DNA of 64,000 nucleotides from Bolinopsis microptera (taxonomy: Eukaryota; Ctenophora; Tentaculata; Lobata; Bolinopsidae). Numbering within the stretch: the stretch's first letter is position 1; every line of letters starts with the position of its first letter. Position numbers and translations under genes: made by a program. Location: assembly GCF_026151205.1 (NCBI RefSeq), contig NC_087079.1:18036945-18100944 (forward strand), in the 5' to 3' direction. Shown here in pieces: positions 3,901 to 62,900 of this stretch. The notes beneath the pieces were generated by a model. The model ran no database searches, had not been told where the DNA came from, and saw only the letters and a program-made list of their open reading frames with translations.

Positions 3901-6900
3901 TGCTACCTCCCGGCTGCATCCAACAATTTCCAGCTCATAGGAAACTTGCTGTTTCTAGCAACCTCTAAACGCCAGAATAAAATGTTACTGATGGTTGCTA
4001 GACAGGGCAAGAAGTAGCCCACTAGCCTAAGCTAAGGTTGCTAGAACGAGCAGAAGTTGGAGGAACTTTGGTGGTAGCTAATAAGCTAAATAGAGGTAGC
4101 CAAAGTAGGTGAAAACAGCTGGAATTGGTGTTTTCTGCATCTGGTGGTAGCTGGATAGAGCAGGAGGTAGCATTCATATCAGAGGTTGCTAGAAAGATCT
4201 AAAATTATAACATATTGTAGCTGGGTAGAGTTAGCATGGACTCAATGGAGTTAGCAGAAGGTAGCCAGAAGTAGATTCTGCTACATGAGGTTGGATTCGA
4301 TTGATTAGCCATAATAGCCAAGCAGTACTCCCAGAGAGGGAGCGGAAAGCAAATTCGAAAAAATTCTTTTAAAAAATTCTTTAAAAAATTCTAAAAGATT
4401 CCCGGCAAATTTAAAGGACTAACTCAAAATTCCACTCCAAAACTTAAGGTCATCAGGCAATTCTATGTTGATTCTGAAAATTTCATGAACGAATATTGAG
4501 GGGGGGGGGGGGGGGGGGGGGGGTAGGTCTTGATTACGTTTGATTACGTTTGATTACGGATGGGGGGAGGGGGTAAAATTGCCGAGATAGAAAAGTCATA
4601 TTTGCGCCTGGGGGTAATTTAGAAGTTTTGCACCCTAGGGTTGAAACTACTAATAGAATTTGCGTACCTTAATCAATTCTGATGCAGAATGACCCTACAA
4701 AGGATCCTGTGTTTATAAACGTTGTAGACACTAGACACTGAACTTCATATCCAATTACACTTAATTTCTATAGTAGATTTTTTTAGTTTTACTCGCGCCC
4801 AAGTAAAGTGAGAATCAGTTTTTCTAAATTTTGTCCAAAAATAATCATTTTGGGCTTTCATGGCTTTTACAGTGCCAATATAAACATGTGCATTGCGGTC
4901 ATTTTAAACTCAACTATGAGTCTCTAAGACCTTCAGAAGCTGAGATACAAATTTCCCATATATACGCACCTGATATGAAATATGGGCGTGGCTCCACAGG
5001 ATTGGGACTAGCGACACAACATGCGGCCCTCGGTGATTTGAGTTACCAATGACCTATTTAACCATATCCAGTAGCAAAAAACTCTATACATCGAAGTGTA
5101 CACTCAACTCCCCCCTGCTACTGGAGTATTAGTTGGTGGGGGTTGTTAAGTCATGTTATTTATGCTTGAACCAGTAGACTAGTAGTTATAATGAACTGTC
5201 TGACCCCCCCCCCCCAGTAGGTACCAATTGTTTGGTGCTTACTATGTGACCCCCCCCCCCCCCCCCAGTAGGTACCAATTGTTTGGTGCTAACTAAGTAA
5301 CCCCCCCCCCCCCCCCCCCAGTAGGTACCAATTGTTTGGTGCTAACTATGTGACCCCCCCCCCCCCCCAATAGGTACCCAATTGTTTGGTGCTAACTAAG
5401 TAACCCCCCCCCCCCCCCTAGTAGGTACAAATTGTTTGGTGCTAACTATGTGACCCCCCCCCCCCCCCCAGTAGGTACCAATTGTTTGGTGCTAACTATG
5501 TGACCCCCCCCCCCCCCCAGTAGGTACCAATTGTTTGGTGCTAACTAAGTAACCCCCCCCCCCCTAGTAGGTACAAATTGTTTGGTGCTAACTATGTGAC
5601 CCCCCCCCCCCAGTAGGTACCAATTGTTTGGTGCTAACTATGTGACCCCCCCCCCCCCCCCCCCCCCTCAGTGATGTGTTCGGAGAACAGACCTACCCTC
5701 TGATAATCTACAGCAAGAGAAAGTTAGTGGACAGAGTAGCGGAGTACAACGAACCGTGGCACACGGAGACCAGTAGTGTCAGTATTCGCAGTACTGTCAC
5801 TCCTGTTCAAGGTATGTGGCTGTGTGTGGCTGTGTGTCCGTCCCTTTGTAAAGTTGTAATTAGCAGTTATACTAAATCTGTTCAGATTTTTTTTTACATA
5901 TGCAACCTACTAAAACCAATGGGGCCCTCCCCGGGGTCATTTTTTAATTATTTTAAAAAAACTATTAAAAGTAACATAGAAAATAGATCCCGTAGACTGA
6001 TGATAACTTTTAACTACTAATCAGAGCTATTTAAACCTGGTTTCAATAATGTTTTGAAGCACATGGGCTGGGATAAACTCAAGCTACAAAATAATACCTA
6101 CTCCCCTTTCAGCTGCGCACGAGAACATATCACCCCAAATAGTTGAAGCACTGCGTCTGTGCTCCGTCCCCCTGGATCTGGAGGTGGACCAGGAAGCACT
6201 AGCTAGCGTGCTAAGTGTCCGCTCCCACACTGCACTCTCCTTACAGTACTGCAGACAACTCCTCCTCTGCTATCTCGCCGGATACGGCAAGGGTTAGTTT
6301 TATGGTTTTTGTTGATATTTCTCAAGGCGAGGGTTATTTTTTCCCCTTACATATAACACGTGTTCCCCACATAACACGTGTTCCGCACATGACGTCATAA
6401 CACGTGTTCCCCAGGTAACCTAAAGCCGAGTAGCTCCCCACATAACACGTGTTCCCCAGGTAACCTAAAGCCGAGTAGCTCCCCACATAACACGTGTTCC
6501 CCAGGTAACCTAAAGCCGAGTAGCTCCCCACATAACACGTGTTCCCCAGGTAACCTAAAGCCGAGTAGCTCCCCACATCACACGTGTTCCCCAGGTAACC
6601 TAAAGCCGAGTAGCTCCCCACATAACACGTGTTCTCCAGGTAACTTAAAGCCGAGTAGCTCCCCACATCACACGTGTTCCCCAGGTAACCTAAAGCCGAG
6701 TAGCTCCCCGGTCTCCTCCTTCCACCCCGGTACAGCAGGAGCCAGTAAACTTTACGATAAACCTGGAGACTTGTTCGTTTCACCTCTCTCTACCTCCTCC
6801 TACGGGATCATAGTGTCTACTTACGAGAAAACTATAGGTTTGTTATTGGCTGAACATTAGTATAGTGATTGGGACTCTAGATGAAATAAATTGGTTAATT

Positions 6901-9900
6901 ATTGACTTATTAGTCATTGTATGTTATTTATTTAAACAACATTCTTTCACAACAATCTAAAGCTCGCGTCACGGTATGTTTCCTATCTAATTACTATAAA
7001 TGATCCCAGAAATGCTGCAAGTAAAGGGAAAGACTGATTTAGCAGTTCAGGCGATGCACGAGCTAGGAAATGTTCTCTTCCACTCTGGGAATACTAAGTT
7101 AGTTATATCTAATTTATTCGTTACCTATAAATTATATACTCGGATTCAGGCGAGAAAATATGGCATCTATACCTCTTCATAATGTCGAACATAATCTTTC
7201 AAATTTCACCAGAACAATAATAATTAGTATTATTGAAAATCAGCACTTCACTTACACTGTATATCAACACTTTCACTTTCACTATTACAGGGGAGCGTTC
7301 AAATGGTGGTGTGACGCACTGGACACACTGCTCCACATGACCAACTCCATGCAGAACTGGCACAGCTTCACTCCTGAAACACTTCTCAACAAGTGCCAGA
7401 TATGGGGCTGTTTGCTCGGCGCCTGTATCGCTTCTAATATTTCCCAGTGAGTTTAAAAACAGTTAGTTAGCCAGTACACTAATTTGTTTTGGCAACATAT
7501 TGTTATTTGAGAGTCCTGATAAGCATGTGGTAAAGATGATGGTTATTCCCCATTATCTGTTTCTGCTTCTTCCAGTTCTCTTGATATTTGAAAAAACGGA
7601 TAGCAGAATGATTGATTACTACTTGATTTAAAATGTATTATCAACTAACAAATGGCTAATTAAGAATTATGATGATAACGTCGCACTGACCCTGATGACG
7701 TCACACTACCCCCTGATGACGTCACACTACCCCCTGATGACGTCACACTACCCCCTGATGACGTCACACTACCCCCTGATGACGTCACAATGCCCCCTGA
7801 TGACGTCACAATGTCCCCTGATGACGTCACAATGCCCCTGATGACATCACAATGCCCCCTGATGACGTCACAATGCCCCCCTGATGACGTCAAACTGCCC
7901 CCTGATGACGTCACACTGCCCCATGATGACGTCACACTGCCCCCTGATGACGTCACAATGCCCCCTGATGACGTCACACTGCCCCCCTGATGACGTCACA
8001 CTGCCCCCCTGATGACGTCACACTGCCCCCTGATGACGTCACAATGCCCCTGATGACGTCACAATGCCCCCCTGATGACGTCACAATGCCCCCTGATGAC
8101 GTCACACTACCCCCTGATGATGTCACAATGCCCCCTGATGACGTCACAATGCCCCCTGATGACGTCACACTGCCCCCTGATGATGTCACAATGCCCCCTG
8201 ATGACGTCACAATGCCCCCTGATGATGTCACAAAGCCCCCTGATGACGTCACACTGCCCCCTGATGAACGTCACACTGCCCCTGATGACGTCACAATGCC
8301 CCCCTGATGACGTCACAATTCCCCCTGATGACGTCACACTGCCCCCTGATGACGTCACAATGCCCCCTGATGACGTCACAATGCCCCCTGATGACGTCAC
8401 AATGCCCCCTGATGACGTCACACCGCCCCCTGATGACGTCACACCGCCCCCTGATGACGTCACAATGCCCCCTGATGACGTCACACTGCCCCCTGATGAC
8501 GTCACAATGCCCCCTGATGACGTCACAATGCCCCCTGATGACGTCACAATGCCCCCTGATGACGTCACAATGCCCCCTGATGATGTCACAATGCCCCCTG
8601 ATGACGTCACAATGCCCCCTGATGGACGTCACACTGCCCCCTGATGATGTCACAATGCCCCTGATGACGTCACAATGCCCCCCTGATGATGTCACAAAGC
8701 CCCCTGATGACGTCACACTGCCCCCTGATGACGTCACAATGCCCCCTGATGACGTCACAATTCCCCCTGATGACGTCACACTGCCCCCTGATGACGTCAC
8801 AATGCCCCCTGATGACGTCACACTGCCCCCTGATGACGTCACACTGCCCCCTGATGACGTCACAATGCCCCCTGATGACGTCACAATGCCCCTGATGACG
8901 TCACACCGCCCCTGATGACGTCACAATGCCCCCTGATGACGTCACAATGCCCCCTGATGACGTCACAATGCCCCCTGATGATGTCACAATGCCCCCTGAT
9001 GACGTCACAATGCCCCCTGATGACGTCACACTGCCCCCTGATGATGTCACAATGCCCCCTGATGACGTCACAATGCCCCTGATGATGTCACAATGCCCCC
9101 TGATGATGTCACAATGCCCCCTGATGACGTCACAATGCCCCCTGATGACGTCACACTGCCCCCTGATGACGTCACAATGCCCCTGATGACGTCACAATTC
9201 CCCCTGATGACGTCACACTGCCCCCTGATGGACGTCACAATGCCCCCTGATGACGTCAACACCGCCCCCTGATGACGTCACAATGCCCCCTGATGACGTC
9301 ACAATGCCCCCTGATGACGTCACAATGCCCCCTGATGACGTCACACTGCCCCCTGATGACGTCACAACTGCCCCCTGATGACGTCACACTGCCCTCCCAA
9401 CAGGTATATAGTGAGCCACAGTGTAGATGACAAAGTAGACGCGTGTCTCCTTAGTGCCCAGCTATTTAAAGCTCTGTTCCATGCATCCCTGCCTCACCCT
9501 GCATCTGACTACCAATATGTTAACCACGAAATAGGTCAGTTAAGAAATATGTCTAGGCAACATGTCTAGTTTTAAACCGTTGCTTTCTGAAAATACAAGA
9601 ATTTTAAGTAAGCTGGATATTTTAAATAATCTGAACTGTGTATGAATTCTAAAGTAACCCTTTTTTCGCGGAGCAAAAATGTGTTTTTCCTTCACACTTT
9701 CACAGAATGACAACAGTATTTAATTAATTAATTAATTAATTAATTAATTAATTAATTAATTATTAATTACAGGAGAAGGTTTCAACATCCCCGCCCTGAT
9801 CCCCGGAGTAGATCTGCTATCTGACCAGTTCAGATGCAGCGCTAGTGTGCTTGTTGGGTCTCTACACTACGTGTCCGAGACTCTTGTTAGACACCAGTTC

Positions 9901-12900
9901 GCTAGTCAGGTTACCATAGTTACACTACTAGTTACCATAGTTACACTACTAGTTACCATAGTTACACTACTAGTTACCATAGTTACACTACTAGTTACCA
10001 TAGTTACACTACTAGTTACCATAGTTACACTACTAGTTACCATAGTTACACTTCTAGTTACCATAGTTACACTACTAGTTACCATAGTTACACTACTAGT
10101 TACCATAGTTACACTACTAGTTACCATAGTTACACTACTAGTTACCATAGTTACACTACTAGTTACCATAGTTACACTACTAGTTACCATAGTTACACTT
10201 CTAGTGACCATAGTTACACTTCTAGTGACCATAGTTACACTTCTAGTTACCATAGTTACACAGTTTACAGAATAGCTAGTGAGGTTTACTCATAGTTTAA
10301 TTAGTTAGTTATTTAAGTTGCTAATTTCATGGCTAATTATTCAGTAAGATTAATAAGATTTTAACTTTGTAACGGTTTATTATTTCAGGCTCTACCAGTA
10401 CTGACACTATATCACTACGTTGCCATGTCTCTTCTATCCGACACCAAACATCTCATTCTTGCTAGAATACTCAAGGTTGGTCATTTTATCGTTTATAACC
10501 TGATCATTTTCTCGCTGTTTAATGAGCCTGCTCGTCACGAAATTTAGTATTTATTATAAATAATATTGATATAATTTAGATATTTGCTTTATAAAGTTGA
10601 CAGAAACAAGTTGACTGATAAGCTACTACCCCTGTACAGGTTGAAGCACTGACACAGTTGTCCATGTTAACAGATGCTCTACAATTGTGGAGTCTGGTAT
10701 CTCAAACTGAGGCGATGCCCACCCCTCCTACTTCTCATGGCAATAACATTTCCAACAAAACTGTGAGTAGTTATTTGTTATTAATTAATTAATTAATTGA
10801 TCATTTGTAATGATTATACAACTTTCTCTCGCTGATTGCACATTATTCGGCTTTTCCTTTGTGGCTTACTCTTTGAACAGGCTGAACAGCACCGTTTAGG
10901 TACTTAAACCGGAAAAGCTTCTTTTCTATTCCTCGCTACTTAATTCCATTTACTCTCATGTAATCATTTTCTTGTTTCGAAGAATCTCAGTTATTTCAGT
11001 TATTTTTTGGTTCTTTCAAAAAATGTTTATTAGTTGAGTTTGCAGGAGAATTATGTACCAGTAACAGCTGTATCCCTATGGGTGGGTCACACATCTCACT
11101 TGTTCGTATAGTGTAACTCCTGTAACTAGTGTAACTAGTGTAACTCCTGTAACTAAAACATTTAGATCTGGTGGGGGAGTCTGTATTGACACGCGTTATT
11201 CTGTGTCACGTGTCGTCGTGACACGTGTTACTCTGTGTCACGTGTTATTCTGTGTCACGTGTCGTCGTGACACGTGTTATTCTGTGTCACGTGTCGTCGT
11301 GACACGTGTTATTCTGTGTCACGTGTCGTCGTGTCACGTGTTGATGCAAATATGGCTCCCCACCAGTATCTAGATTTATTTAGCAGTATATTATTGAAGT
11401 TTGTTTAATGAAAAGTGAAAAACTTGTGACGTTGGCATGGTTTAAGTCGATTGTTATGTTCGGGCATTTCCCTGTGTAACTAAACCATTAAGCTTTATGT
11501 TTTACTGCATACGTGATCATTTAAGAGCTCCAATATTATACCAAGGAGCAAGGAGTATGAACAATCGAGGGAGCAAGTGAGATCTAGATGGTAATTTCCT
11601 AACTTAAAGTGCAAATTTCGGAGGGAAATGAAATAAAGTTAAGAAATTACCATTATTTTCACTTAGTTAGCTCTTTATCTGAATATTAGACAATGGTTAG
11701 TGTTGTACAGAATAAAAAGTGAAAACTTGTGAATTTGATGTTTATCAAATTGAGTAACATGTGAGTTGTGATGTTATGTAAACTTTAAAATGAATAACTT
11801 ATGACGGTGGCATGGTTTGCGCCAATAATAATCTCTCGGTGAAGCATTGAAAGTTATATTTATAAGTTAACTGAATGATTATAAAAGTCATCCTCAGTTC
11901 TCAGAGTTATAAAACCAAATATCTCGCAGAATGTTCCAGAGTACAACATAACAGAACCACTAAACAGTACCCAGAACATACAAGCTGTAGAACACGCTAT
12001 AAAGTGCAAAATCCCACCAATCCCTCAGCCCCCCTTCACTACTAACCTATCAGCACTTGCGCAGCTGGCGCACGCGGGGTTGATGCTGGCTATTGCGCAG
12101 CGGTCCTCTGTTGTGCCTATGTACAGTGAGGGCAGTGAGAGTCAAAGTAAGAATGTCTCCTGGAATATAAACAAATTCACTGACCATTGTACTGAACTGA
12201 CCATGTACCGACCATGTATTTTTAATTCCCTGCTATCCCTTCAAATAATGATTACTCCTACAGCTACAGAATCTGCCATCAAGTACAAACTGTGTAATTC
12301 ATCTGAAGTTATACTCATGCACCTCTCCAAATGTGCTGATAAAGGTAATTATTACCATAGTTACACTACTAGTTACCATAGTTACACTACTAGTTACCAT
12401 CTCTCCAAATGTGCTGATAAAGGTAATTCAGTATGCCCTATTTTATTACCATAGTTACACTACTAGTTACCATAGTTACACTACTAGTTACCATCTCTCC
12501 AAATGTGCTGATAAAGGTAATTCAGTATGCCCTATTTTATTACCATAGTTACACTACTAGTTACCATAGTTACACTACTAGTTACCATAGTTACACTACT
12601 AGTTACCATAGTTACACTACTAGTTACCATCTCTCCAAATGTGCTGATAAAGGTAATTCAGTATGCCATATTTTTAAAGTTTGAACTGAACCCCCTTGAC
12701 TAAACAGCTCTACACTTCTGAAAATGTCCTCAACTTCTTTTTGAGTATTAAATTTCTCCCTTCAGAAGACGTCCACTACTGTGAAATTTTTATTTTTATT
12801 TTTTTCATAATTTTTAATTTTCATATTCACGTATATTAAATAAAATTATATTGTTATGTATCATATGATTTTGTAAACATTGGCCGGTGTACCAAAAACC

Positions 12901-14340
12901 GGTCCCAAACAAACAACCCTTCAGAAGATGCCCACTACTGTGAAATAGAGATAGGGGTGAGTTCCCGTAGGTTGCTGTGCACTATCGCACTGGAGAAGCA
13001 GCTGGGGGCTACCATAGTTAACCTCAGTAACTACGGGCTCTCACTTCTCCAGCGCTCTTATCAGCTTGACAGGTTTTTATCTTACATTTAATACTGCTAC
13101 TATTTCTATCTTACATTTCTTACATTTCTGTAATTCAATAGTTTGTTTTTAGAGATAGATACATCTTAGTTTTCGGTGATTAATGATTGTGATGACGGAG
13201 TTTAAAACATTGTATTGTGAACTTATTTTCTACATGCTTCTGTTGCACTTAATTTGACATTGAAACAATCTTCACACAATCCTGGTTTGTCAACCTTGCG
13301 ATCCTACTATAACATTATATTATTAGACAAGAGGTAGTTTCCTACGATGAGATGTGTAGTAAGAGGCGGCTGGACAGTCTGGCCTGGCTACAGTTAAAAT
13401 GTGCTATGATCCAAGGGTTTGGGCTCATGACCACCATGTACGGTAAGTCATCCACTTACAAGGTCCCAATGCAACTTGGACCTTGATTTTTTTTCAGTTT
13501 CAACTTCAGAAATCGTCGCTTGTCTTGCAAGTGTTTTTATGGCAGTGGTGCATCGTCTTCTCTTATCATTTCATGAACCTACAAATTTCTAGGTGCGAAT
13601 GATTGCAAGCAAATATGTGCCGCCACGAAAGAGGAATCTCAGCTATTCAATTCGAGTGAAATGCAAGCCTGGATATCACTGAAAGACCTTGTCTTGGATA
13701 TCAACGCCAGCAACACTTTCCAAGTTGAGGTGGGCGTCTAATTTCCATCTAAAAAACTTGATAACGTTCGAAACATTCCTTTGATAAATTCAAATATTCA
13801 CGTACATAGTCATTCAACCATTATATTCATTATGCATCGCGAAGCTGTCCAGCTCGCACAGTGGCGGCTTATTTAGCAGAATTGACAACGCGGGAGGTCT
13901 ACTGCGCGGCTCAGTTGGCATGGTAACACTAATCAAATGTTATGAAGAACAAATTTATTTTCGCGCGTTTTGTCCACATGTTAATTTCACGGCTGTTATT
14001 TAATAAATAAATATTTATTAATTATTCTATAAAAAAGGCGTGCCTGAATAAATGCGTTCACCCTGATTTTTTTGTGAACCTTAATTTCAAGATAGCAGTT
14101 TTTAAATGTTTAGGATCAAGATAAGAAGAATTGCTACTTGTTAGTTGTTTGGTAAATCATCTTCATCACTATTTTTAGTTTCAGATACAGCCTCTCTTAT
14201 GCTCATGCCACTTTTCAGCGTCAGATAAAAGAAGGTCTCTCCAGGATGGTGGCCCCATCCTGTCTGGGTGCCAGTGTTAGTGTTGGTACTATCCTGTACT
14301 GTGCTTCTAGAGCTACTAACAAGGAGGACTCACTATCCAG
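992..14340 (+). CDS. CFAP54: CFAP54 C-terminal half (16 exons, partial at both ends)
   Basis: Sixteen exons join in frame with GT..AG borders: 992-1089, 5672-5811, 6113-6292, 6685-6837, 7010-7097, 7291-7446, 9404-9534, 9773-9909, 10389-10475, 10640-10762, 11930-12146, 12264-12344, 12925-13072, 13327-13442, 13593-13729 and 14219-14340. Phases agree at every join, giving about 704 codons without a stop. The product is mostly helical and TPR-like, for example GNVLFHSGNTKGAFKWWCDA across the join at 7097/7291, followed by LLGACIASNISQYI. I recognise this style from the C-terminal part of CFAP54, a very large protein of the C1d projection of the central apparatus in motile cilia. The assignment is from memory of the family and is supported by the CFAP54 N-terminal half in the same window. 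I see no start codon exon and no terminal exon; the last exon ends in phase 2 shortly before the N gap. An unrelated ciliary TPR-like protein is the main alternative. Confidence 0.72.
2079..3063. repeat. 316-bp tandem repeat, about 3.1 copies
   Basis: The motif TAAATCAAGAGGCTTGCATA recurs at 2081, 2397, 2713 and 3030, a spacing of 316, 316 and 317. The units look nearly identical; the extra base is one T in a CTTCTTTT run. The fourth copy breaks off after about 33 bases. The array sits inside the foldback element, and its near identity suggests recent amplification or gene conversion. Confidence 0.95.
4499..4523 (+). repeat. Poly-G run
   Basis: An uninterrupted G run of about 23-25 bases lies inside the right arm of the foldback element. 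Its length is likely polymorphic or uncertain in the assembly. Confidence 0.9.
5200..5668 (+). repeat. About 50-bp minisatellite with long poly-C tracts, 10 copies
   Basis: Each unit has a C tract of roughly 10-22 bases followed by AGTAGGTACCAATTGTTTGG and GTGCTAACTATGTGA or a close variant. The last C tract runs straight into CTCAG, the acceptor of exon 5672-5811, so the repeat itself provides that exon's polypyrimidine tract. Confidence 0.93.
6345..6709 (+). repeat. 45-bp minisatellite spanning a splice acceptor
   Basis: Seven units share ACACGTGTTCCCCAG followed by GTAACCTAAAGCCGAGTAGC, with 45-bp spacing. Junctions fall at 6415, 6460, 6505, 6550, 6595, 6640 and 6685. The first half of each unit is intron end and the second half is the start of exon 6685-6837. 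The frame used by the gene is open through every unit, so each acceptor would add a 15-residue block (NLKPSSSPHNTCSPG or a close variant). Each unit also carries the palindromic CACGTG core. Confidence 0.93.
7680..9395 (+). repeat. 20-bp minisatellite with a CRE palindrome, about 85 copies
   Basis: The unit is close to CCCCCTGATGACGTCACACT, with 19-21 bp variants. Almost every unit carries the perfect palindrome TGACGTCA, which is the consensus CREB/ATF site; a minority have TGATGTCA. The array fills most of the intron between exons 7291-7446 and 9404-9534 and stops just before that acceptor. ORFs read through it on both strands only because units rarely contain stops; they are not genes. Confidence 0.96.
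9720..9768 (+). repeat. (TTAA)n microsatellite
   Basis: Tandem TTAA/TAAT tetranucleotides lie directly upstream of the acceptor of exon 9773-9909. Confidence 0.9.
9910..10262 (+). repeat. 21-bp minisatellite starting at a splice donor, about 17 copies
   Basis: The unit is GTTACCATAGTTACACTACT plus A. The array begins at the donor of exon 9773-9909 (CAG then GTTACC). Because 21 is a multiple of three, the exon frame stays open through the array as repeated VTIVTLL until a stop near 10273. Every unit has a possible GTTACC donor. The same unit reappears at 12350-12620 in another intron of the gene. Confidence 0.94.
11185..11345 (+). repeat. Palindromic CACGTG-rich minisatellite
   Basis: About four to five units of roughly 30 bp contain GTGACACGTGTTATTCTGTG and TCACGTGTCGTCGTGACACG. 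Each unit is internally palindromic and holds CACGTG E-box cores. It lies in the intron between exons 10640-10762 and 11930-12146. Confidence 0.85.
12322..12660 (+). repeat. Composite repeat duplicating an exon end and its donor
   Basis: The last bases of exon 12264-12344 with its donor (CCAAATGTGCTGATAAAG then GTAATT) occur four times, at about 12322, 12400, 12494 and 12628. They are separated by two to four copies of the 21-bp unit (GTTACCATAGTTACACTACT plus A) and, in two cases, by an AGTATGCCCTATTTTATT spacer. Confidence 0.92.
12759..12788 (+). pseudogene. Duplicated start of the next exon
   Basis: CTTCAG followed by a stretch encoding EDVHYCEI matches the real acceptor and start of exon 12925-13072 (EDAHYCEI). 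The similarity stops there and AT-rich intron sequence follows. It is a partial exon duplication about 160 bp upstream and a possible decoy acceptor. Confidence 0.75.
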
Positions 14341-14631
14341 GTCAGCAACTGAATGATACTTTTTAGCGATATTTCAGGTTTAAATGTTTGTAACAAATTG
14401 TACTGTGTTTAATTAGCATAAATAAGCCACGGTATGTGCAAATTTTAAAATCCTCTCCGTCACTTCGGCCTTCGTATCAAGAAAATGTAAGTTATTTTCA
14501 GTTGTACCTACTAAATGTTAATATTTGATATCTATGTTAATATTATCGTTTACTTATACTTTGCTTTTTTTACGGAGCGAATCTGCAAAGTCCAGGTAAT
14601 TGCTAGATCCCCTCTTGCGCCAACTATCACG

Positions 14632-14731
14632 NNNNNNNNNNNNNNNNNNNNNNNNNNNNNNNNNNNNNNNNNNNNNNNNNNNNNNNNNNNNNNNNNNNNN
14701 NNNNNNNNNNNNNNNNNNNNNNNNNNNNNNN
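14632..14731. other. Assembly gap (100 N)
   Basis: Exactly 100 N, the conventional length for a gap of unknown size. Coding sequence of the CFAP54-like gene stops shortly before it and does not resume after it, so order and orientation across this join are uncertain. Confidence 0.99.
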
Positions 14732-36315: not shown

Positions 36316-36321
36316 GACGGG

Positions 36322-43676: not shown

Positions 43677-44024
43677 CTTTTGATTTAAATTTTCTCCACA
43701 ATTTGTAACAGGCTATCTGCAGAAATGGGTAGCCCGGTTAATGACCATGGTCCTTTCTCAAACTTTTAATCCTTTATTAGGCACAAAGAATAGTCTACAC
43801 ATTATTTAATAGCATAAAAAGGGATGAAAATCAATTCATTTATGAAAAATATCATGTAACAACTTTTCCATATTACTGGAGAGTAAAACTTTGTTAAACA
43901 CAAAAATTCTTGAGCACATTTCGAGTCAGACTCAAATGCGTTTAAAAGCATTTTAGTATATAACAATAAATTATGTAAACAATAACACCAACAATAATAA
44001 TAAATTGAACAAATTATTGAGAGA

Positions 44025-45785
44025 TGAAAGAGAGGAAGAGGAGGAGGGGGACTGAGGAGGGGACTGAGGAGGAAGAGGAGGGGGGCTGAGGAGGAGTAAG
44101 ACTGAGGAGGAGAACTGAGAAGGAGGAATGAATAGGAGGAGGAGGAGGAGAAGAAGGACTCAAGAGGAGGAGGAGGACTGAGGAGGAGAAGGAGGACAGA
44201 TGAGGAGGACTGGGGGAGGACTGAGGAGGAAGACAACTGAGGAGAAGGAAGAGGAAGACTGAAGAGGACTGAGGAGGAGGAGGACTGAGGAGAAGGAGGA
44301 GGACTGAGGAGAAGGGGGATTAGGAGGAGGAGGAGGAGGACTTAGAAGGAGGAGGACTGAGGAGAAGGAGGAGGACTGAGGAGAAAGGGAGAGAGGAGGA
44401 GGAGGAGGAGAGAGGAGGAGGGTGACAGGGGAGAGGACTGAGGAGGAGGAAGAGGAGAAGGACTGAGGAGGAGAAGCAGGAGGACTGAGGAGGAGGACGA
44501 CCCAGGAGGACGAGAACTGAGAAGAAGGAGGATGAGGACTGAGGACGAGGAGGAGGACTTGGGAGGAGGAGGACTGATGAGGAGGACTGAAGACGAGGAG
44601 GAGTAGGAGGAGGACTGAGGAGGGAGGACTTAGGAGGAAGAGGAGGACTGAGGAGGAGGAGGATTGAGGAGTAGGAGGAGAAAGAGGACTGAGGAGGATC
44701 AAAAGGACCCAGGAGGAGGACCCAGGAGGAGGAGGAGGAGGAGGACTGAGGAGAACTGAGAAGAAGGAGGACTGAATAGGAGGAGGAGGAGGGGACTGGG
44801 GGAGGGCTGAGGAGGAGGAGGACTGAGGAGGAGGAGGACTAAGGAGAAGGATGAGGAGGAGGACTGAGGAGGAGGAAGACCCAGGAGGAGGACCCAGGAA
44901 AATGCCCCATGAGGAGGAGGAGGAGGACTGGGGAGGAGGAGGACTGATGAGGACTTTTGAGGACTGATGAGGAGGACTGAAGCTGAGGACAAGGAGGAGG
45001 AGGAGGAGGACTGAGGACTGAGGACTGAGGAGGAGGACTGATGAGGAGAAGGAGGTGTATGAGGAGGATGAGGAGGAATAATGAGAAGGAGGATGAGGAG
45101 AAGGAGGACTGAGGAGGAGGACTGGTGAAGAGGACTGATGAGGAGGAGGAGGAGGACTGATGAGGATCAGGAGGACCCAGGAGGAGGACCCAGGAGGAGG
45201 AGGAAGAGGAGGAGGACTGAGGAGGAGGACTGAGCAGAACTGAGGAGAAGGAGGAGAAGTACTGCATAGGAGGAGGGGGACTGGGGGAGGAGGAGGACTG
45301 AGAAGGAGGAGGACTGAGGATAACTGCTCGGAGTAGGAGTAGGAGGAGGACTGAGGAGGGGAGGACTTAGGAGGAAGAGGATGACTGAAGAGGAAGAGGA
45401 GGAGGATAAAGAGGAGGACTGAGGAGGAGGACTGAGAGGTAGGAGGAGGAGGAGGAGGAGGAGAAGAACTCAGTAGGAGGAGGATGAGAAGGAGGAGAAC
45501 TGAGGAGGAGGAGGACTAAGAAGAAGGATGAGGAGGAGGACTGAGGAGGAGGAGAAGGACTGAGGAGGAGGAGGACTGAGAAGGAGGAGGACTGAGGAGA
45601 ACTGAGGAGAATGAGAAGTACTGAATAGGAGGAGGGGGACTGGGGGAGGACTGAGGAGGAAGAGGACTGAGGAGGACGACTAAGGAGAAGGATGAGGAAT
45701 AGGACTGAGGAGGAGGAGGACTGAGGAGGAAAAGGAGGAGGATGAAGAGGAGGACTGAGGAGGAGGACTCAGGAGAATAGCTGAA
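44025..45785 (+). repeat. 1.75-kb polypurine (GGA/CTGAGGAGGAGG) tract
   Basis: Imperfect repeats of AGGAGGAGGACTGAGGAGGA with very few pyrimidines on the + strand. It yields Ser/Pro/Leu-rich minus-strand ORFs that drift between frames and are not credible genes. Such mirror-like homopurine sequence can adopt triplex or G-rich structures; this is inference. Confidence 0.93.
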
Positions 45786-45964
45786 CTAGAATAACACTGC
45801 TTCCTTGTGTCAAATTCAATCATGAAGAATTCAATCACATACCTATCTAGGAAGATATTTACTCTTCCAGACACTACTGCAGTACATCGTACTTACATTA
45901 AATTACACACCTACTAGTATTGGTACCATTTTGATACCAACTGTACGGGTGTTACATTAATTAC

Positions 45965-46145
45965 AAATTCGTTGCACCAACAACGTGTTACAGGTGTAAC
46001 ATTTGAGAAATTGTTACGCCCGTAACGTGTTACGGGTGTAATATTTGAGAATTTGTTACACCCGTAACGTGTTACGGGTGTAACATTTGAGAATTTGTTA
46101 CGCCCGTAACGTGTTACGGGTTCGTTACGGGTTTGTTACGGGCGT
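45965..46145 (+). repeat. Right subterminal palindromic minisatellite
   Basis: About four units of the same palindromic family as 43190-43445, here separated by ATTTGAGAAT, the inverse of the left spacer. This supports a symmetric element. Confidence 0.9.
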
Positions 46146-48525: not shown

Positions 48526-48544
48526 ATAACTGAGACACACCAAA

Positions 48545-49055
48545 CTGACACTCGGCCACAAGCACGCCAATATCATCAAAAACCTCAACACCACACTCAT
48601 CAACAACAGACAAGACTACAGAACTGCAGTTCACCTCATCACGGGACACTGCGGCTTAAACAAACACCTTCACACCATTAGCAAATCAAACACCAGCGCT
48701 TGTCCTATGTGCAGTGACGGAGAGGAAACTGTCTCACACTTCCTTGGACAGTGTCCGGCTATTGCCCAAATTAGAGGTCAATATTTCCAGGACTACTACC
48801 TCTCTGTTAATGACATATTCGACAACCACCACGATTGTCAATTTTGCAAACCGCACCAAACGCTTCATTGTGCCGGAAGAGCTGGATCAGACCGGGGTGA
48901 CTTACACCATCCTCCACCAGTCACTCTGATTTCACCAGCAACCTTCCCCAGGGTTGCCACACCCCAGAGGTAGGCAGAGCATCTCAATGCTATCCTCTCG
49001 TGGGCTTTTTTGGCCCAGCCTCTCTTTAAAAAAATTTTTTTTAAAAGAAAAAAAA
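48545..49055 (+). mobile_element. 5'-truncated non-LTR retrotransposon (LINE) 3' end
   Basis: A conceptual translation from about 48553 reads GHKHANIIKNLNTTLINN, then HLITGHCGLNKHLHTI, then CPMCSDGEETVSHFLGQCPA. This is the usual C-terminal end of Jockey/I-type LINE ORF2, with the Cys-His pattern C..C....E...H.....C. A frameshift near 48840 moves the last 30 or so codons (FANRTKRFIVPEELDQTGVT) to another frame, which ends with a stop at 48929. A short 3' UTR and an A-rich tail (49026-49058) follow. Most of the element is missing, so it is a dead copy. Confidence 0.8.
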
Positions 49056-53099: not shown

Positions 53100-53830
53100 T
53101 TTGGTAAACGTGTGTTGACTCTATGTATTTAACTGACTATCTATGTATTTACTTAGATACTGTATGTATTTATTTAGATACTGACTATTTATGTATTTAA
53201 CATAATATTTAGTTTATTACGGGTAGAAATTAATTTAGGTAGGTATTTTTTCTTCTAGGTAGATATTAAGAATTTGGTAAATTTATAAATTGTATGACTA
53301 TTTCCATTATTGAGACGTTTTTAATTTTTAATTTAGGAGGGTTTTTGTAATTTTTATAGGACTGGTTCACAGTGTGAACAGATTCTAGATTTATTATATA
53401 TATTTTTAAACTGATATTTAATAAATTATTAAAAGAACCAATTTTAAAGTTGCCATATTGCAGCCTTTAGGTTCAAAAATATACCCATTATGCTCACTTA
53501 AAAACAACTCTAAATCAGTAGGCTGTCACTCTATTAATGCACCACACTGCTATCTCCACTCCTTCATAGTGTGATGATATTTTGTAGAAATGTGTGACTT
53601 TATTTTACTTTGAAACTTTTACTAGGTTGCCGTTTGGTGTGAGCAATAGCGCAGCGTCAACCTATATCTAATCTATTCAAAGAGTGACAACCATATTACA
53701 CATTGAATTAGGATTCCTTTAAATATCAAATTGATTTATTGTAAACTTGTTTATTCTGTAATAAATGGCAAATTTTTGTTCAACTGATATGGGCGGTATA
53801 CAAGCACATTATTTCATTTCATAGTTATAA
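53100..53830 (+). mobile_element. Possible retroposon 3' end upstream of CFAP54
   Basis: The stretch ends GGGCGGTATACAAGCACATT ATTTCATTTCAT, which resembles a LINE/SINE 3' terminus with an ATTTC tail. A similar end appears inverted at 430-480. I see no ORF belonging to it, so the extent is a guess. Confidence 0.35.
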
Positions 53831-53931
53831 ATATGCAAAAATGGAGTGTTCACTTCATTTGTCTCAGAAATTGTGGCTTTTTAAAATGCAAACATTTGGT
53901 TTGACTAACCTCAAGTATATTTAGGAGCTTC

Positions 53932-56900
53932 ATGTCTAAGACACGTCAAGGTACTCTTTCAAAGTTTACCTCTGACACAAACAGTGAGTTCAACACTAAG
54001 AAGATAAATAAGATTGACCCGATACAGATTGCCTTTGTACAGGAGTTAAAAAGGTTCATTGGTAAGTGTCACTTTATGAATGTATACTTTTTTATCAATG
54101 TAAGGTGAAGCTTCGAAACAGTCCTGTAGATTTATATCTTTCCTGCCGACTCTCTTCAACATCTCTTACTGCAAATCGCAACCCGAAGATTATTTCCTAG
54201 CTTTATTTCTCTTTATGGTACTAGCAAAATAACTACTTTTGCCTATGTTAAAAAAATACTGTATTTCACTATTTCAGGTTATGTTGATAGAATATCAAAG
54301 GAAGCTGAGCTTTATTTTATCTCAGCTGGTGGTCCAGTAGATGAACCCAGTTCCAATGATGAGAGCCCTGCTAGGCTTTCAAACACACTGTTTAGCCTCT
54401 GGAATAGCTACAGCCTCAAGCTTCCAAAAGATTACTTCTTGACCCAACTCATTAACACAGGAGATTATCTCCTCAAGGTGAAAGAATACAATGTGGCAAA
54501 GCAGCACTGTTACGATTATTACCTGCGTCTGCTGAGAGATAGTGCAGTCACAGATGATTATTCATCTATATATTTTCCTACCGGATTTCAAGATGAGCAG
54601 AGAGTCAAAGAAACAAGTCAGGCTATTTTTGGAAATGGATTATGTACATTAAAGAATTTGGAAATAATAGACCCTCACATGAATGCAGAGAAGACAGTGG
54701 CTGATCTTCTGGAGGTTCTGGATGACTTTAGGAAGCTTACCCAGCACCTCATCCCTCATGAGCGACATTGTTGGTTAGTTTTCAATGGAACTGTTCACAT
54801 CTACAAAATCAGTCAATGGCTTGTGGACTGTGGCTACACTGCTAAAACTCTCCAGTATTTAGTTTGGTGCTGTGTCTGCATGGAGAGTGTCATTCCTCTG
54901 ATGACTCTCAAATTTCTGTCTTGGAGAGGTTCCTTGTACTCGGCTGTGTGCCAGAGCTATGTAGATTTAAATCAACCACATGCTGCTGAAGTCTTTGCCA
55001 GACGATGCCTTCAAAAAGTTCATCAACTGGCAAAAATTGAAGAGCAAAGCATGTCAGAACCCACTCCGGAATCCGAAGCTATTTTTCGAGAGGTCACAGT
55101 GAAACTCTCTGCAATAATCTTCAAAAGAGTTGTCTTTGAATCAAGGCGCCCAAAGAAGATCATACACCGGCCAAAAACAAGACAGAACCTGAAAGAGCTG
55201 CAGTTGTTACCATTTCCTCGAACCGCTTCTGAAAAGCTGGTCATGGATATGTTTGAAGGTAGTTCTTCACAGTTTCTAGCTATTCTAGAGGCTTTGTCAG
55301 ACCCGTGTAGGAGAACGTGTATGTATACTCCCCCAAAACTCGACACCACCGAGGGGGGAGATGCTCTTATGGATGTATGGGGTGAACTTATACTCGGTAA
55401 GTTGTATTTCTCATCTTTTTAGATTGTTAATAATATTTTCATTCTGTTCTAATTTTAAAATTATTATTCTATGAAATTTTAATTAATTTAATTAATTTTT
55501 TTAAATTAACAGTTGTGTATGATTTAACAGAACACTTTAAAATGGCACCTGACTTCGATTATCAACATTCACAGAGTTCCGCGTTACATAATTAACTTCA
55601 ATTAATAATACCATTCAACAAGCATGGTATTTAGATGAGATTTTGTTAAAACTAATTGAGATAAAAAACTCTTGCTGTAAATTAACAGCTATTTCCTTCT
55701 AGCTGGGTACGAGTTGATCTCCCGGTGTGAGTCCTTTCCACGAACCAGCCTAGTCCAGCTAGCTAGAGTAGGAAGTAACGAACTGTCTATGAGTGCAGTG
55801 TTAAAGTACATCAGGCTGGCTTTCAATTACGAGTACTGGGATTATTACACCATGGCTGTTTCTCATCTCGTCCCACTAATTGAGGTATTTTATAACGTGG
55901 CACTGTTATCTCGTCCCACTAATTGAGGTATTTTATAACGTGGCACTGTTATCTCGTCCCACTGATTGAGGTATTTTATAATGTGGCACTGTTATCTCGT
56001 CCCACTGATTGAGGTATTTTATAATGTGGCACTGTTATCTCGTCCCACTAATTGAGGTATTCTATAATGTGGCACTGTTATCTCGTCCCACTAATTGAGG
56101 TATTTTATAATGTGGCACTGTTATCTCGTCCCACTAAATGAGGTATTTTATAATGTGGCACTGTTATCTTGTCCCACTAAATGAGGTATTTTATAATGTG
56201 GCACTGTTATCTCGTCCCACTGATTGAGGTATTTTATAATATGGCACTGTTATCTCGTCCCACTGATTGAGGTATTTTATAATGTGGCACTGTTATCTCG
56301 TCCCACTAATTGAGGTATTCTATAATGTGGCACTGTTATCTCGTCCCACTAATTGAGGTATTTTATAACGTGGCACTGTTATCTCGTCCCACTGATTGAG
56401 GTATTTTATATTGTGGCACTGTTATCTCGTCCCATTAATTGAGGTATTTTATAATGTTGCACTGTTATCTCGTCCCATTAATTGAGGTATTTTATAATGT
56501 GACACTTTTATCTCGTCCCATTAATTGAGGTATTTTATAATGTGACACTTTTATCTCGTCCCACTGATTGAGGTATTTTATAATGTGGCACTGTTATCGT
56601 CATACTAGGTCACTGAAACCAGATTGTATTTGATATTCATTGTAGTCTTTGATTATTTCTACTTAAGTTATATGTACATAATATAATATGATGTAATTGT
56701 ATTCCTCAGGCGGTGGAAGAAGAAACAGTTGACCATATTTTCACCAAGGAGACAATCATGCTGCTAGATGCAATGAAAAGTGTTTCAAATGTGTTGAGGA
56801 AAGACACTCGGCCAAGCACCTGTTTTGTAGATAATATGCTGGATGGACATTGCACTCCACCTACTTTAGACAGGTATTATTGGTATTAAACGCAAAATTA

Positions 56901-59900
56901 TTATCTTGATAAATTGCATATTATTACCAAATTTATCATGCTATTATTCAGGGTATATACTATATTATATTATAATATCTTACATATACTATTGCTGTAC
57001 AGTATATATTATAGCAATTTACATTTTACAATGATCATTATTATATATAAACAAAACTACGCAATTCTCACGATTCACCACATGTATTCTTCAGTTTGAA
57101 CCAATGTTTAAGTACTCAAGCAGAGCGTGCTAGTGCCACACCAAGACGAAAATCAATTTGGGGCGACCAAAAAGATGATCTGTTCACCTTGATAAACCTG
57201 AGCTCAGTGCTGTGCAATATTAAAGCTAGTGACTGTGCGGAGATGTTTGTGAAGGAGCAAGGGGATATGTTGGTTGACGCCGTCTTGTTGATCCTTCACA
57301 GTCTCAAGGATCACTTCTCCCGTCTAGTGTCTCCTTCGACTGTAAGATTACTCGTGTTAAAGCACTGTTGCTATCTTTATTATCTTTATTATCTTTATTA
57401 TCTTTATTATCTTTATTATCTTTATTATCTTTATTTTCTTTATTATCTTTATTATCTTTATTATCTCTATTATCTTTATTTTCTCTATTATCTTTATTTT
57501 CTTTATTATCTTTATTATCTTTATTATCTTTATTATCTTTATTATCTTTATTATCTCTATTATCTTTATTATCTTTATTGGCACTATCTTTATTATCTTT
57601 ATTATCAAGTGCCCCTATAAGGCTAAACTCTGAAAATCTTAAAATTCGATATCATGACCTAAACAGAAACATGAATATTATGACTATACGAATAAATAAC
57701 TCTCAGGTGAAACAATACTTGGTAGCTGAGAACATTTCAGAGCTGATGGAGCTAATGGCTGATTGTAACGAACTGTCCCTGTGGTTAAACCTCTACAATA
57801 TAGACCCTCTGTTGCCGGGGGAGATTGCACTTAAATCAGCACTCTTACTTGAAGCTCATGCCAAGAATATGAAGACATCATTATTCGGGCATCGTTCTGT
57901 AAGGACTACGAATGTATTTTATTAAATAGATAATTAATAAAGAAAATAAACTTTTGTTTGAAGCTCAGGAAATTCTTGTAACACATTGATTTCCATGTTG
58001 AGTTTGCTTTCAACTTTCAAGTGGTATACCCCAACAAGGTTCTATGAGATATAGCGTAAGATATTTACAACCAGAGATAGTAGACACACCGATGTTCAAC
58101 TTAGTTCAACAGTTCAACTTTATGACCGTTCAACTAACAGGGTCCCGACAAACTATCAAAGGTCCAAACCACTCTAACAAACGCGCTCACAACACTGCGT
58201 AACAGCGTGTCAGCGCTGGAGGAGGTGCGAAATGTCAAGGAGATTGCGCTCACTGCTACCTGCGACCCGCTCATGCTGGTTGTGGATCCTTCCCTCAGCA
58301 GGAAAACTGAAGGTTCGTCAGGAACACTTTAGTTATTTCATATTTTAAACAACGGTATGAATTATAAATGTGGATACTTGTTGAGAGGTAAACCATAGTC
58401 CGTACACGTGACTGATATTTATCAATCAGATCCCAGAATCACGTGTCTATAAGTGTTAGGGAGCATTACAACAATGATCCCCCAGCTTGAACCTTATTGC
58501 AAAGTTCCAATATAATACAATGGTTCCCCCCAGCTTGAACCTTATTGCAAAGTTCCAATAATATAATGGTTCCCCCAGCTTGAACCTTATTGCAAAGTTC
58601 CAATATAATACAATGGTTCCCCCCAGCTTGAACCTTATTGCAAAGTTCCAATAATATAATGGTTCCCCCAGCTTGAACCTTATTGCAAAGTTCCAATATA
58701 ATACAATGGTTCCCCCCAGCTTGAACCTTATTGCAAAGTTCCAATAATATAATGGTTCCCCCAGCTTGAACCTTATTGCAAAGTTCCAATATAATACAAT
58801 GGTTCCCCCCAGCTTGAACCTTATTGCAAAGTTCCAATAATATAATGGTTCCCCCAGCTTGAACCTTATTGCAAAGTTCCAATATAATACAATGGTTCCC
58901 CCCAGCTTGAACCTTATTGCAAAGTTCCAATAATATAATGGTTCCCCCCAGCTTGAACCTTATTGCAAAGTTCCAATAATATAATGGTTCCCCCAGCTTG
59001 AACCTTATTGCAAAGTTCCAATAATATAATGGTTCCCCCAGCTTGAACCTTATTGCAAAGTTCCAATATAATATAATGGTTCCTCCCAGCTTGAACCTTA
59101 TTGCAAAGTTCCAATATAATATAATGGTTCCCCCCAGCTTGAACCTTATTGCAAAGTTCCAATAATATATAATGGTTCCCCTAGCTTGAATCTATATTGC
59201 AAAGTTCCAATAATATAATGGTTCCCCCAGCTTGAACCTTATTGCAAAGTTCCAATAATATAATGGTTCCCCCAGCTTGAACCTTATTGCAAAGTTCCAA
59301 TAATATAATGGTTCCCCCAGCTTGAACCTTATTGCAAAGTTCCAATATAATATAATGGTTCCCCCCAGCTTGAACCTTATTGCAAAGTTCCAATAATATA
59401 ATGGTTCCCCCCAGCTTGAACCTTATTGCAAAGTTCCAATAATATAATGGTTCCCCCCAGCTTGAACCTTATTGCAAAGTTCCAATAATATAATGGTTCC
59501 CCCCAGCTTGAACCTTATTGCAAAGTTCCAATATAATATAATGGTTCCCCCAGCTTGAACCTTATTGCAAAGTTCCAATAATATATAATGGTTCCCCTAG
59601 CTTGAACCTTATTGCAAAGTTCCAATAATATAATGGTTCCCCCAGCTTGAACCTTATTGCAAAGTTCCAATAATATAATGGTTCCCCCAGCTTGAACCTT
59701 ATTGCAAAGTTCCAATAATATAATGGTTCCCCCAGCTTGAACCTTATTGCAAAGTTCCAATATAATATAATGGTTCCTCCCAGCTTGAACCTTATTGCAA
59801 AGTTCCAATATAATATAATGGTTCCCCCCAGCTTGAACCTTATTGCAAAGTTCCAATAATATATAATGGTTCCCCTAGCTTGAACCTTATTGCAAAGTTC

Positions 59901-62900
59901 CAATAATATAATGGTTCCCCCAGCTTGAACCTTATTGCAAAGTTCCAATAATATAATGGTTCCCCCAGCTTGAACCTTATTGCAAAGTTCCAATAATATA
60001 ATGGTTCCCCCAGCTTGAACCTTATTGCAAAGTTCCAATATAATATAATGGTTCCCCCCAGCTTGAACCTTATTGCAAAGTTCCAATAATATAATGGTTC
60101 CCCCCAGCTTGAACCTTATTGCAAAGTTCCAATAATATAATGGTTCCTCCCAGCTTGAACCTTATTGCAAAGTTCCAATAATATAATGGTTCCCCTAGCT
60201 TGAACCTTATTGCAAAGTTCCAATATAATATAATGGTTCCCCCAGCTTGAATCTTATTGCAAAGTTCCAATAATATAATGGTTCCCCCAGCTTGAACCTT
60301 ATTGCAAAGTTCCAATAATATAATGGTTCCCCCCAGCTTGAACCTTATTGCAAAGTTCCAATAATATAATGTACTTATATTTTCCCACTTTAGGAGACGT
60401 AGCACACAATATCACAGTAGCTGATCTCCAACTTGAAATGTTAGCAGTAAATCTACGATTACAACAGCAACTTCACAAAGCAGAGAAAAGCGAATCTAAA
60501 GTAAGCTCTAATTCTTACTTTCTTATTTTAAATAACTAATTTTAACTATATATTAATTGTTTTTTTGATTGCTAGAAACTCTTTAGATTTGCCTCTTAAA
60601 ATTGAGCGATTTTTTCTCTTTTCGGTCGATTAATTCATTGGCTCAGACGTGAGCTGTAACTGATTAATTATAATTTTATATAGCATTCTGAATTCTGAAT
60701 TCTATTTATAACCCACTAACTTACTTCACATACCAAATATCAGTGTTAATTGGTTGATTATAATAGGTAGTAGAGTGGTGTAAAAAGAATACGCTCTTCC
60801 TTGCAATAACTCGGATGCAGTTAGCTACCATTGAAACAAAAGCAGCTGAGAAACACCTACGGGACAGCTACGATCTTCTGCTCAAGTCTTGGTCTGAAGA
60901 AAAACGGTGAGATTTTTACCAAACATTTTTTAGTTTGATGTACGATATTTTAGTTTTAAACTTTTATGCGTCGATCAAAACATTTTTAATTATATTGAAC
61001 ATTTTTTACTGTCAAGCGTAGCCGTAATCACACAACTTAGAACATCTTCATTTCTCAAAAGTGTCCCTTCTAATTACTACCTTATTTGATTATGTACGAA
61101 TTATCTTCACCTCCTCTTTTCAGGCTGCACACCTCGCTTCAAGGAACTGAACAACAAGGATCAGTCCCTAACCCTCCGATACTAACCTCTAGAACTAGCA
61201 CTACCATGACATTCAAACCTGCTCCTTATACAGCTCCTAAAGGGGTCAAGGTAGAGTCCCCATATTATATTATGATCCAAATAATCAAGTGTCTAATTAT
61301 CTCCGATATTCATAATTAATGAGATTTAATTTACTAAAATTAAATATAACCATAATGAAAATGTACATAACCCAGGTAAAGTGGTACAGACTATACGGGA
61401 GGTCGTCCTCTGGGAGCAACATAAAAGTGCGAATGAACGACAAGCTGTACCCAGGACTAGCAATGGAGGTAGCAGCAGTAGAGGGAAACGAACTGACTGT
61501 CTCTAACCTGACTCCCTACGAGAAATACCAGTTTGCTGTGGCTGCTTTTGACGAGCATGGCAAGCTGATAGCTGGGAGTATCGGGCATAGTAGCAAACCT
61601 ATACTGGCCTCTCCTCCGTTCAGTCATCTTACTGCTTGTGGGCATCTCATTCAGGTGAGCTATACTGGCCTCTCCTCCGTTCAGCCATCTTACTGCTTGT
61701 GGGCATCTCATTCAGGGGAGCTATACTGGCCTCTCCTCCGTTCAGCCATCTTACTGCTTGTGGGCATCTCATTCAGGTGAGCTATACTGGCCTCTCCTCC
61801 GTTCAGCCATCTTACTGCTTGTGGGCATCTCATTCAGGTGAGCTATACTGGCCTCTCCTCCGTTCAGCCATCTTACTGCTTGTGGGCATCTCATTCAGGT
61901 GAGCTATACTGGCCTCTCCTCCGTTCAGCCATCTTACTGCTTGTGGGCAACTCATTCAGGTGAGCTATACTGGCCTCTCCTCCGTTCAGCCATCTTACTG
62001 CTTGTGGGCATCTCATTCAGGTGAGCTATACTGGCCTCTCCTCCGTTCAGCCATCTTACTGCTTGTGGGCATCTCATTCAGGGGAGCTATACTGGCCTCT
62101 CCTCCGTTCAGCCATCTTACTGCTTGTGGGCATCTCATTCAGGTGAGCTATACTGGCCTCTCCTCCGTTCAGCCATCTTACTGCTTGTGGGCAACTCATT
62201 CAGGTGAGCTATACTGGCCTCTCCTCCGTTCAGCCATCTTACTGCTTGTGGGCATCTCATTCAGGTGAGCTATACTGGCCTCTCCTCCGTTCAGCCATCT
62301 TACTGCTTGTGGGCATCTCATTCAGGGGAGCTATACTGGCCTCTCCTCCGTTCAGCCATCTTACTGCTTGTGGGCAACTCATTCAGGTGAGCTATACTGG
62401 CCTCTCCTCCGTTCAGCCATCTTACTGCTTGTGGGCATCTCATTCAGGTGAGCTATACTGGCCTCTCCTCCGTTCAGCCATCTTACTGCTTGTGGGCATC
62501 TCATTCAGGTGAGCTATACTGGCCTCTCCTCCGTTCAGCCATCTTACTGCTTGTGGGCATCTCATTCAGGTGAGCTATACTGGCCTCTCCTCCGTTCAGC
62601 CATCTTACTGCTTGTGGGCATCTCATTCAGGTGAGCTATACTGGCCTCTCCTCCGTTCAGCCATCTTACTGCTTGTGGGCATCTCATTCAGGTGAGCTAT
62701 ACTGGCCTCTCCCCCGTTCAGCCATCTTACTGCTTGTGGGCATCTCATTCAGGTGAGCTATACTGGCCTCTCCTCCCTTCAGCCAGTCTGTCTAGCTCTT
62801 ACTTGATTTGTATTCTGTAAATGATTTTATTTATACGCTACCTTGTATTTTGGTGGGAGCAGGGTGCTTGCCTTATTACTTCTTCTTAAGGGGGCAGGGG

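Follow-up and report, generated by a model that had tools for sequence, protein, structure and literature searches.

Mirages in a ctenophore: minisatellites across exon–intron borders of CFAP54 in Bolinopsis microptera

Mirages are minisatellite-like tandem duplications of exon–intron boundaries, described from the Adh3 and globin genes of amphioxus (PMC3087553) and also from its TnC and PGBD5 genes (PMC3902484). According to these reports they occur at both 5' and 3' borders, with units from 10–72 bp in Adh3 to 150–160 bp in the globins; their unit number varies between haplotypes and many, although not all, of their units carry AG or GT (PMC3087553, PMC3902484). Reverse transcription PCR (RT-PCR) suggests that amphioxus splicing is undisturbed by them (PMC3087553). 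Here we analyse a window of 64,000 nucleotides from the ctenophore Bolinopsis microptera (contig NC_087079.1, hereafter C8, 18036945–18100944), in which five tandem arrays straddle exon borders, four in two copies of the gene CFAP54 and one in a gene with a calponin-homology (CH) domain. These arrays are mirages, an amphioxus oddity now found in another phylum. As in the amphioxus descriptions, the repeats span the border at donors and acceptors, the surplus units contain AG or GT and the unit number is unstable; they differ in their ctenophore host, in having up to 43 surplus units, in affecting many junctions of one gene and in having had their placement tested against a null model. No prior report of border-spanning minisatellites in ctenophores was found among the titles and abstract openings of the open-licence literature.

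Introners are dispersed mobile elements with splice signals, which multiply and make introns. The arrays resemble them in that intronic sequence bearing splice signals is multiplied, but four of the five have no relatives within the 260 kb searched beyond a neighbouring array or the corresponding position in the second gene copy, while the 21-bp unit of the fifth recurs there. In human segmental duplications, variable internal tandem repeats are described at exon–intron boundaries of recently duplicated genes, where they change transcripts and coding repeats and may yield new introns (PMC2812944); in CFAP54, by contrast with that account, each of 40 paired exons is as long in one copy as in the other. 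In potato, tandem duplication across an intron–exon boundary is reported to give a new intron whose donor comes from exonic sequence (PMC4974935). Two donors described below (66840 and that of a dynein gene, locus L033) are likewise of exonic origin but, unlike the potato case as reported, an existing intron grows or has its donor replaced, and none of the five window arrays bounds a new intron.

We consider it probable that these minisatellites were founded on ordinary exon–intron junctions, through a pervasive tandem duplication that is purged from exon interiors and tolerated at borders. Since states before and after duplication are available, the choice of a splice site among dozens of near-identical ones becomes testable, as does the frequency with which border duplications yield new splice sites or introns. 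The analysis also supplies a null for such claims, about 3 border-straddling minisatellites being expected by chance in this array-rich window.

Five arrays across exon borders and their host genes

Arrays were called with Tandem Repeats Finder. The preliminary description had placed five of them on the splice sites 6685, 12344, 27526, 55884 and 61654, and all five do cross exon borders at exactly these positions (coordinates are relative to the window start; negative values and those above 64000 lie outside the window). The four CFAP54 borders were fixed by in-frame exon chaining and by tblastn of the Mnemiopsis leidyi protein P0122, and the minus-strand border by the gene model together with a CH-domain match that spans it.

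6396–6709, plus strand: array of 45 bp, 7 units, on acceptor 6685; 25 exonic nt; 6 surplus sites; open in the coding frame
6685–6837, plus strand: exon of CFAP54 copy 1, its 5' end the founder; NLKPSSSPV against NIKPSSSPV in Mnemiopsis
12264–12344, plus strand: exon of CFAP54 copy 1, its 3' end and donor repeated 3 more times downstream
12349–12630, plus strand: array of 94/21 bp on donor 12344; 22 exonic nt; 3 surplus donors at offsets 78, 172 and 308
27353–27526, minus strand: exon of the CH-domain gene, acceptor 27526
27498–28835, minus strand: array of 46 bp, 29 units, on acceptor 27526; 29 exonic nt; 28 surplus sites; a single unit in the second copy of the gene (locus L035)
55703–55884, plus strand: exon of CFAP54 copy 2, donor after 55884
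55865–56598, plus strand: array of 43 bp, 17 units (6 in copy 1), on donor 55884; 20 exonic nt; 16 surplus sites
61376–61654, plus strand: exon of CFAP54 copy 2, donor after 61654
61599–62785, plus strand: array of 61 bp, 19.5 units (17 in copy 1), on donor 61654; 56 exonic nt; 15 surplus sites

Surplus sites thus accompany donor and acceptor borders alike, the far splice site of the intron lies outside the array in all five cases, and the coding frame and the Mnemiopsis protein are consistent with use of the exon-proximal sites. Within the exon, the founder consists of conserved coding sequence; examples are SPPFSHLTACGHLIQICHKQG at 61654 and NLKPSSSPVSSFHPG at 6685, the latter reading NIKPSSSPVSSFHPG in Mnemiopsis. 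Both gene copies contain three of the five arrays, with different numbers of units. The 12349 array, whose 22 exonic nt were counted by eye (the finder's edge begins 4 nt inside the intron), does not occur in CFAP54 copy 2, where the corresponding intron is 103 bp long. Its 21-bp unit (GTTACCATAGTTACACTACTA) is related among the arrays at 9910–10261, 12349–12630 and 42172–42284. Two arrays of CFAP54 copy 1 approach an exon without reaching it:

7690–9394, plus strand: array of 21 bp, 81 units (20 in copy 2), stopping 9 nt before acceptor 9404
9910–10261, plus strand: array of 21 bp, starting at the first intron base after donor 9909

The arrays had been attributed to two unrelated genes; the plus-strand borders in fact belong to two copies of one gene, CFAP54, and 27526 to the CH-domain gene. 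The 5' part of CFAP54 was identified through PDB 9ijj_H (E 4e-115) and Pfam CFAP54_N, and its 3' part through tblastn of P0122, which finds the exons consecutively in both copies; a 1,674-aa translation of the exons matches P0122 over its full length at 77%. The window holds the 3' part of copy 1 and the 5' part of copy 2, which lie on one chromosome:

Window 1–14631 (C8:17983376–18051575): region of CFAP54 copy 1
14632–14731: run of 100 N, at which copy 1 is cut inside the gene and the copy-to-copy match stops
Window 53782–64000 (C8:18090726–18154350): region of CFAP54 copy 2

Among the matches listed, the two copies are mostly 91–98% alike. Their 40 paired exons are 98.1% identical, and 622 codons compared in the 3' part differ at 36 synonymous and 3 non-synonymous positions, a silent-site divergence of approximately 8% by hand estimate. 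In the CH-domain gene the domain match (residues 5–108) runs across the border, and part of this gene is duplicated at C8:17908284 (L035), upstream of CFAP54 copy 1 just as it lies beside copy 2; the second copy is 81–89% alike, with numerous small indels. Unpurged haplotypes or a segmental duplication would each fit the CFAP54 and CH duplicates, which are probably the former. The assembly is a draft (264.65 Mb in 232 contigs), on which all unit counts depend; COX1 was not found in it.

Founders, births and surplus splice sites

Comparison of gene copies identifies the founders. At five junctions an array in one copy faces one unit in the other: 12344 against 115645 (copy 2), -46674 (51 bp, 19 units) against 61124 (copy 2), -40334 (53 bp, 2 units) against 70515 (copy 2), 69232 against -41674 (copy 1), and 27526 against the single unit of L035. 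Because the copy without the array holds one unit there, the native junction is the founder.

Duplicated junctions were counted with a 16-mer centred on the junction, requiring at least 14 matches and extra copies within the same intron. By this test 11 of 80 junctions have extra copies in CFAP54 copy 1 and 7 of 96 in copy 2. Four duplications are common to both copies (55884, 61654, 76645 and 111378/6685), and 9 of the 13 comparable junctions are duplicated in a single copy; acceptor 130095 of copy 2 has no counterpart, copy 1 being cut. The single-copy cases are:

-46674, acceptor, copy 1 only: 51 bp, 19 units
-43871, donor, copy 1 only: 51 bp, 2 units
-41481, donor, copy 1 only: 35 bp
-40334, acceptor, copy 1 only: 53 bp, 2 units
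-35159, acceptor, copy 1 only: 44 bp
12344, donor, copy 1 only
12925, acceptor, copy 1 only
69232, acceptor, copy 2 only
113261, donor, copy 2 only

In copy 2 the counterpart of -43871 is donor 66840, which carries a separate duplication of 58 bp; this is bounded by GT on both sides and has brought an exonic GTACGG to the donor. The 51-bp duplication at -43871 includes a short filler. A two-copy border duplication of 55 bp also occurs in the dynein gene L033 (4770–4879, in the region 4725–4879). At 66840 and in L033 the GT-starting sequence of the next unit now occupies the donor, and the 16-mer test misses both, their donors having been renewed by the duplication. Duplications of this type are a possible route of donor turnover. 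The two-copy duplications (51 bp and 58 bp at one donor in two gene copies, and the 55 bp of L033) look like births of such arrays.

The acceptor 12925 represents a different case. It had been listed as a further single duplication, and the copy of the acceptor is indeed present; it is no tandem array, however, but flanks an insert.

12786–12916, plus strand: insert of 131 bp, flanked by repeats of approximately 30 nt that copy acceptor 12925; not in CFAP54 copy 2
12925–13072, plus strand: exon of CFAP54 copy 1 with native acceptor 12925

Nucleotides 36–130 of the insert (95 nt) recur at 95.8% elsewhere on the contig. As repeats of approximately 30 nt flank an insert with sequence that recurs elsewhere, the copy is most simply read as the target-site duplication of a putative dispersed element.

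Exon interiors are free of such repeats: not a single array is contained entirely in an exon across 7,013 and 8,477 bp of the two CFAP54 copies and a further 997, 10,496 and 9,209 bp (approximately 36 kb). From the intron, arrays extend into exons by as much as 77 nt, and the exon keeps an in-frame edge. These observations bear out the tolerance suggested in the preliminary description, while the junction-directed mechanism proposed beside it is not established.

Nine border arrays at six junctions, a set that omits 111378, 12344, 69232, -41481, -35159, 113261, 130095 and the two-copy cases, comprise 186 surplus units, in 183 of which GT or AG is intact; the three lost sites all fall in one array (61654, copy 2). 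Mismatch per cell in these nine arrays is 0.0081 for the dinucleotide and 0.0112 for the splice core, compared with 0.0106 elsewhere in the unit. As the splice dinucleotides vary like the remainder of the unit, nothing indicates that selection either keeps or removes the surplus sites. Most surplus sites have splice scores like those of native ones. Three arrays are in frame and free of stops (45 bp at 6685, 51 bp at -46674 and 51 bp at -43871), and, were their surplus sites used, each unit would contribute 15 or 17 extra residues; the periods of the other border arrays would shift the frame if surplus sites were spliced.

Placement of the arrays relative to chance, and its explanation

The stretch around the window is dense in arrays, which occupy 68,083 of 260,000 bases. 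For the array-level null each array was collapsed to one unit, and a founder of that length was placed randomly in the collapsed gene; an array straddles when its founder crosses the border by at least 4 exonic nt, and a looser class (the 10-nt rim) comprises arrays that straddle or lie within 10 nt of a border. The 12349 array was set to 'straddling' by hand in these tests. In place of self-trained gene models, which drifted, the counts use models that were trained on trusted exons and subsequently guided by P0122. Left out of the counts were a 48-nt exon without a Mnemiopsis counterpart (-40909; 69962), a variant start that lengthens one exon by 15 nt, the far match 138647, predicted dynein exons below 60 nt (L027–L029) and the last predicted exon of L030. 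Introns above 6,000 bases were left out of the 16-mer junction and profile tests, and those above 8,000 of the array-level tests; in the position-level test of 356 junctions the limit was 6,000 for the CFAP54 copies and the CH gene and 8,000 for the dynein loci.

The frequency of border arrays in the window had been considered unusual, but of its 26 intron arrays 5 are border-straddling, with 3.1 expected (P 0.18), and we conclude that this count is ordinary for the array density; with the 10-nt rim, however, there are 11 against 4.4 (P 0.001). In CFAP54 outside the window, 13 of 44 arrays straddle (6.6 expected, P 0.008) and 19 fall in the rim class (9.6 expected, P 0.0008), so that the border excess in CFAP54 is up to twofold. 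The dynein loci have 1 of 23 straddling (2.2 expected) and 4 in the rim class (3.4 expected). An earlier exon set had given straddling counts of 8 for copy 1 (3.77 expected, P 0.022), 6 for copy 2 (4.56 expected), 1 for the CH gene (0.57 expected) and 0 for the dynein gene (0.37 expected). Three dynein heavy-chain genes elsewhere (C3:8954112, C1:6100405 and C4:10070770) have open frames of 3357, 3703 and 2539 aa and are perhaps nearly intronless, with numerous multi-exon relatives alongside.

At the level of positions the sampled genes show no excess: 19 of 356 junctions are duplicated against 18.1 expected with 16-mers, where the background includes microsatellites and other short repeats (removing copy 1 leaves 8 of 276, with 11.9 expected, and removing copy 2 leaves 12 of 260, with 12.4 expected). 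With 20-mers the count is 16 and the expectation 17.7. Before five dynein loci were added, the figure was 19 of 266 against 14.8 (P 0.17). The share of duplicated 16-mers rises from 0.4% at -72 in the exon (1/250) through 2.4% at -48 to -32 and 7.5% at the border (19/254) to 12.6% at +16, 15.7% at +48 and 25.3% at +96 in the intron. This is a slope without a peak at the junction, although the intron shares are uncollapsed and lie above the collapsed CFAP54 averages of 6–8%. Comparison with random placement in the sampled genes gives a mixed answer at array level, with an excess in CFAP54 and none in the dynein genes, and no excess at position level.

Under the reading that we favour, short tandem duplications, of approximately 35–100 bp at borders, would arise widely in the genome through break repair or replication error, and some would expand by slippage or unequal exchange. 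Those wholly within an exon would be eliminated by selection. A border-crossing duplication would leave an intact exon edge and splice site while its surplus units turn into intron, and for this reason would do hardly more harm than one confined to the intron; the exon-proximal site would be spliced and the surplus sites ignored, as frame and Mnemiopsis suggest. Several observations weigh against this reading. Since pure tolerance predicts no excess at borders, any excess counts against it, and over all sampled genes the straddling arrays number 19 of 95, where 12.0 are expected (P 0.02), with 12 against 7.1 when copy 2 is removed (P 0.035) and 9 against 7.7 when copy 1 is removed (P 0.35); the rim class is approximately twofold in excess (34 against 17.3, P 1.6e-5), and copy 1 alone shows 11 of 80 against 6.2 in the position-level test (P 0.046). 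Some arrays may have a more than local origin, since the 12349 and 9910 arrays have a 21-bp unit in common and relatives within the 260 kb exist for 61 of its 127 array units (groups counted by hand). Of the 25 related-unit groups, 13 represent the same array in both CFAP54 copies. The rim excess persists without copy 1 (20 against 11.2, P 0.0035) or copy 2 (22 against 10.5, P 1.7e-4); among arrays of at least 2.5 units there are 14 straddling against 8.8 (P 0.039), 6 against 5.3 without copy 1 and 9 against 5.8 without copy 2 (P 0.10). A modest bias near borders is possible.

These excesses, in CFAP54 outside the window and in the rim class of the window and of all genes, are what would be expected if a mutational bias made arrays start on splice sites or beside them, for instance through short direct repeats around AG and GT or transcription-linked breaks, and the GT on both sides of the 66840 duplication would suit it. 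We nevertheless think such a bias unlikely as the explanation: the dynein loci have no comparable excess, the position-level counts are close to expectation (against a background that includes microsatellites), the profile has no junction peak, the -43871 duplication contains filler, and the two CFAP54 copies are not independent of each other. Junction-targeted founding as the main cause is not established, the CFAP54 excess being absent in the dynein loci, although we do not reject it outright. Selection retaining redundant splice sites as a buffer, which had also been proposed, is very improbable; it would account for the native-like scores of most surplus sites and for the three stop-free arrays with periods divisible by 3, but surplus dinucleotides are conserved no better than the remaining unit, most comparable junctions are duplicated in one copy only, and the remaining periods shift the frame. 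Assembly artefact, from a long-read draft with unpurged haplotypes, seems equally remote: the CFAP54 match does end at 100 N inside the gene and the second CH copy is rich in small indels, yet 8 of 9 arrays tested show differences among their units outside the splice core, arrays shared by both copies have unequal unit numbers, and amphioxus is reported to have such structures with RT-PCR support (PMC3087553).

Three further readings were rejected. Movement of a junction into a pre-existing intronic array is ruled out at 6685 and 61654 by the Mnemiopsis-conserved exonic part, and elsewhere where the other copy holds one unit. That the arrays are themselves new introns is ruled out in the window, since all five stop short of the intron's other end. 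A dispersed mobile minisatellite is not supported, the 12349 array alone among the five having a recurring unit (21 bp) within the 260 kb searched.

A broader proposition, that mirages represent a genome-wide and fast turnover of splice sites, is one we entertain only tentatively. It would draw on the 9 of 13 junctions that differ between copies approximately 8% apart, on the new donors from exonic GT at 66840 and in L033, and on the picking of the exon-proximal site among up to 43 near-identical decoys.

Other repeats of the window

The window contains several further repeats. A 5.4-kb array at 36326–41717 has 83 copies of a 65-bp unit with 98% matches, and a 316-bp unit is repeated 3.1 times at 2077–3062 (99%). 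At 43208–46121, two arrays of a 42-bp unit (43208–43439 and 45982–46121), which appear by eye to be mutual reverse complements, enclose a 1.7-kb GAG-rich purine tract (44032–45767). A 147-aa open frame at 48530–48970 has a cysteine–histidine stretch that by eye resembles part of a retrotransposon protein. The CFAP54 intron 61655–63679 is 829 bp longer than its copy 1 counterpart, and within it the sequence at 62880–63640 seems by eye to return as its own reverse complement, in a foldback-like arrangement.

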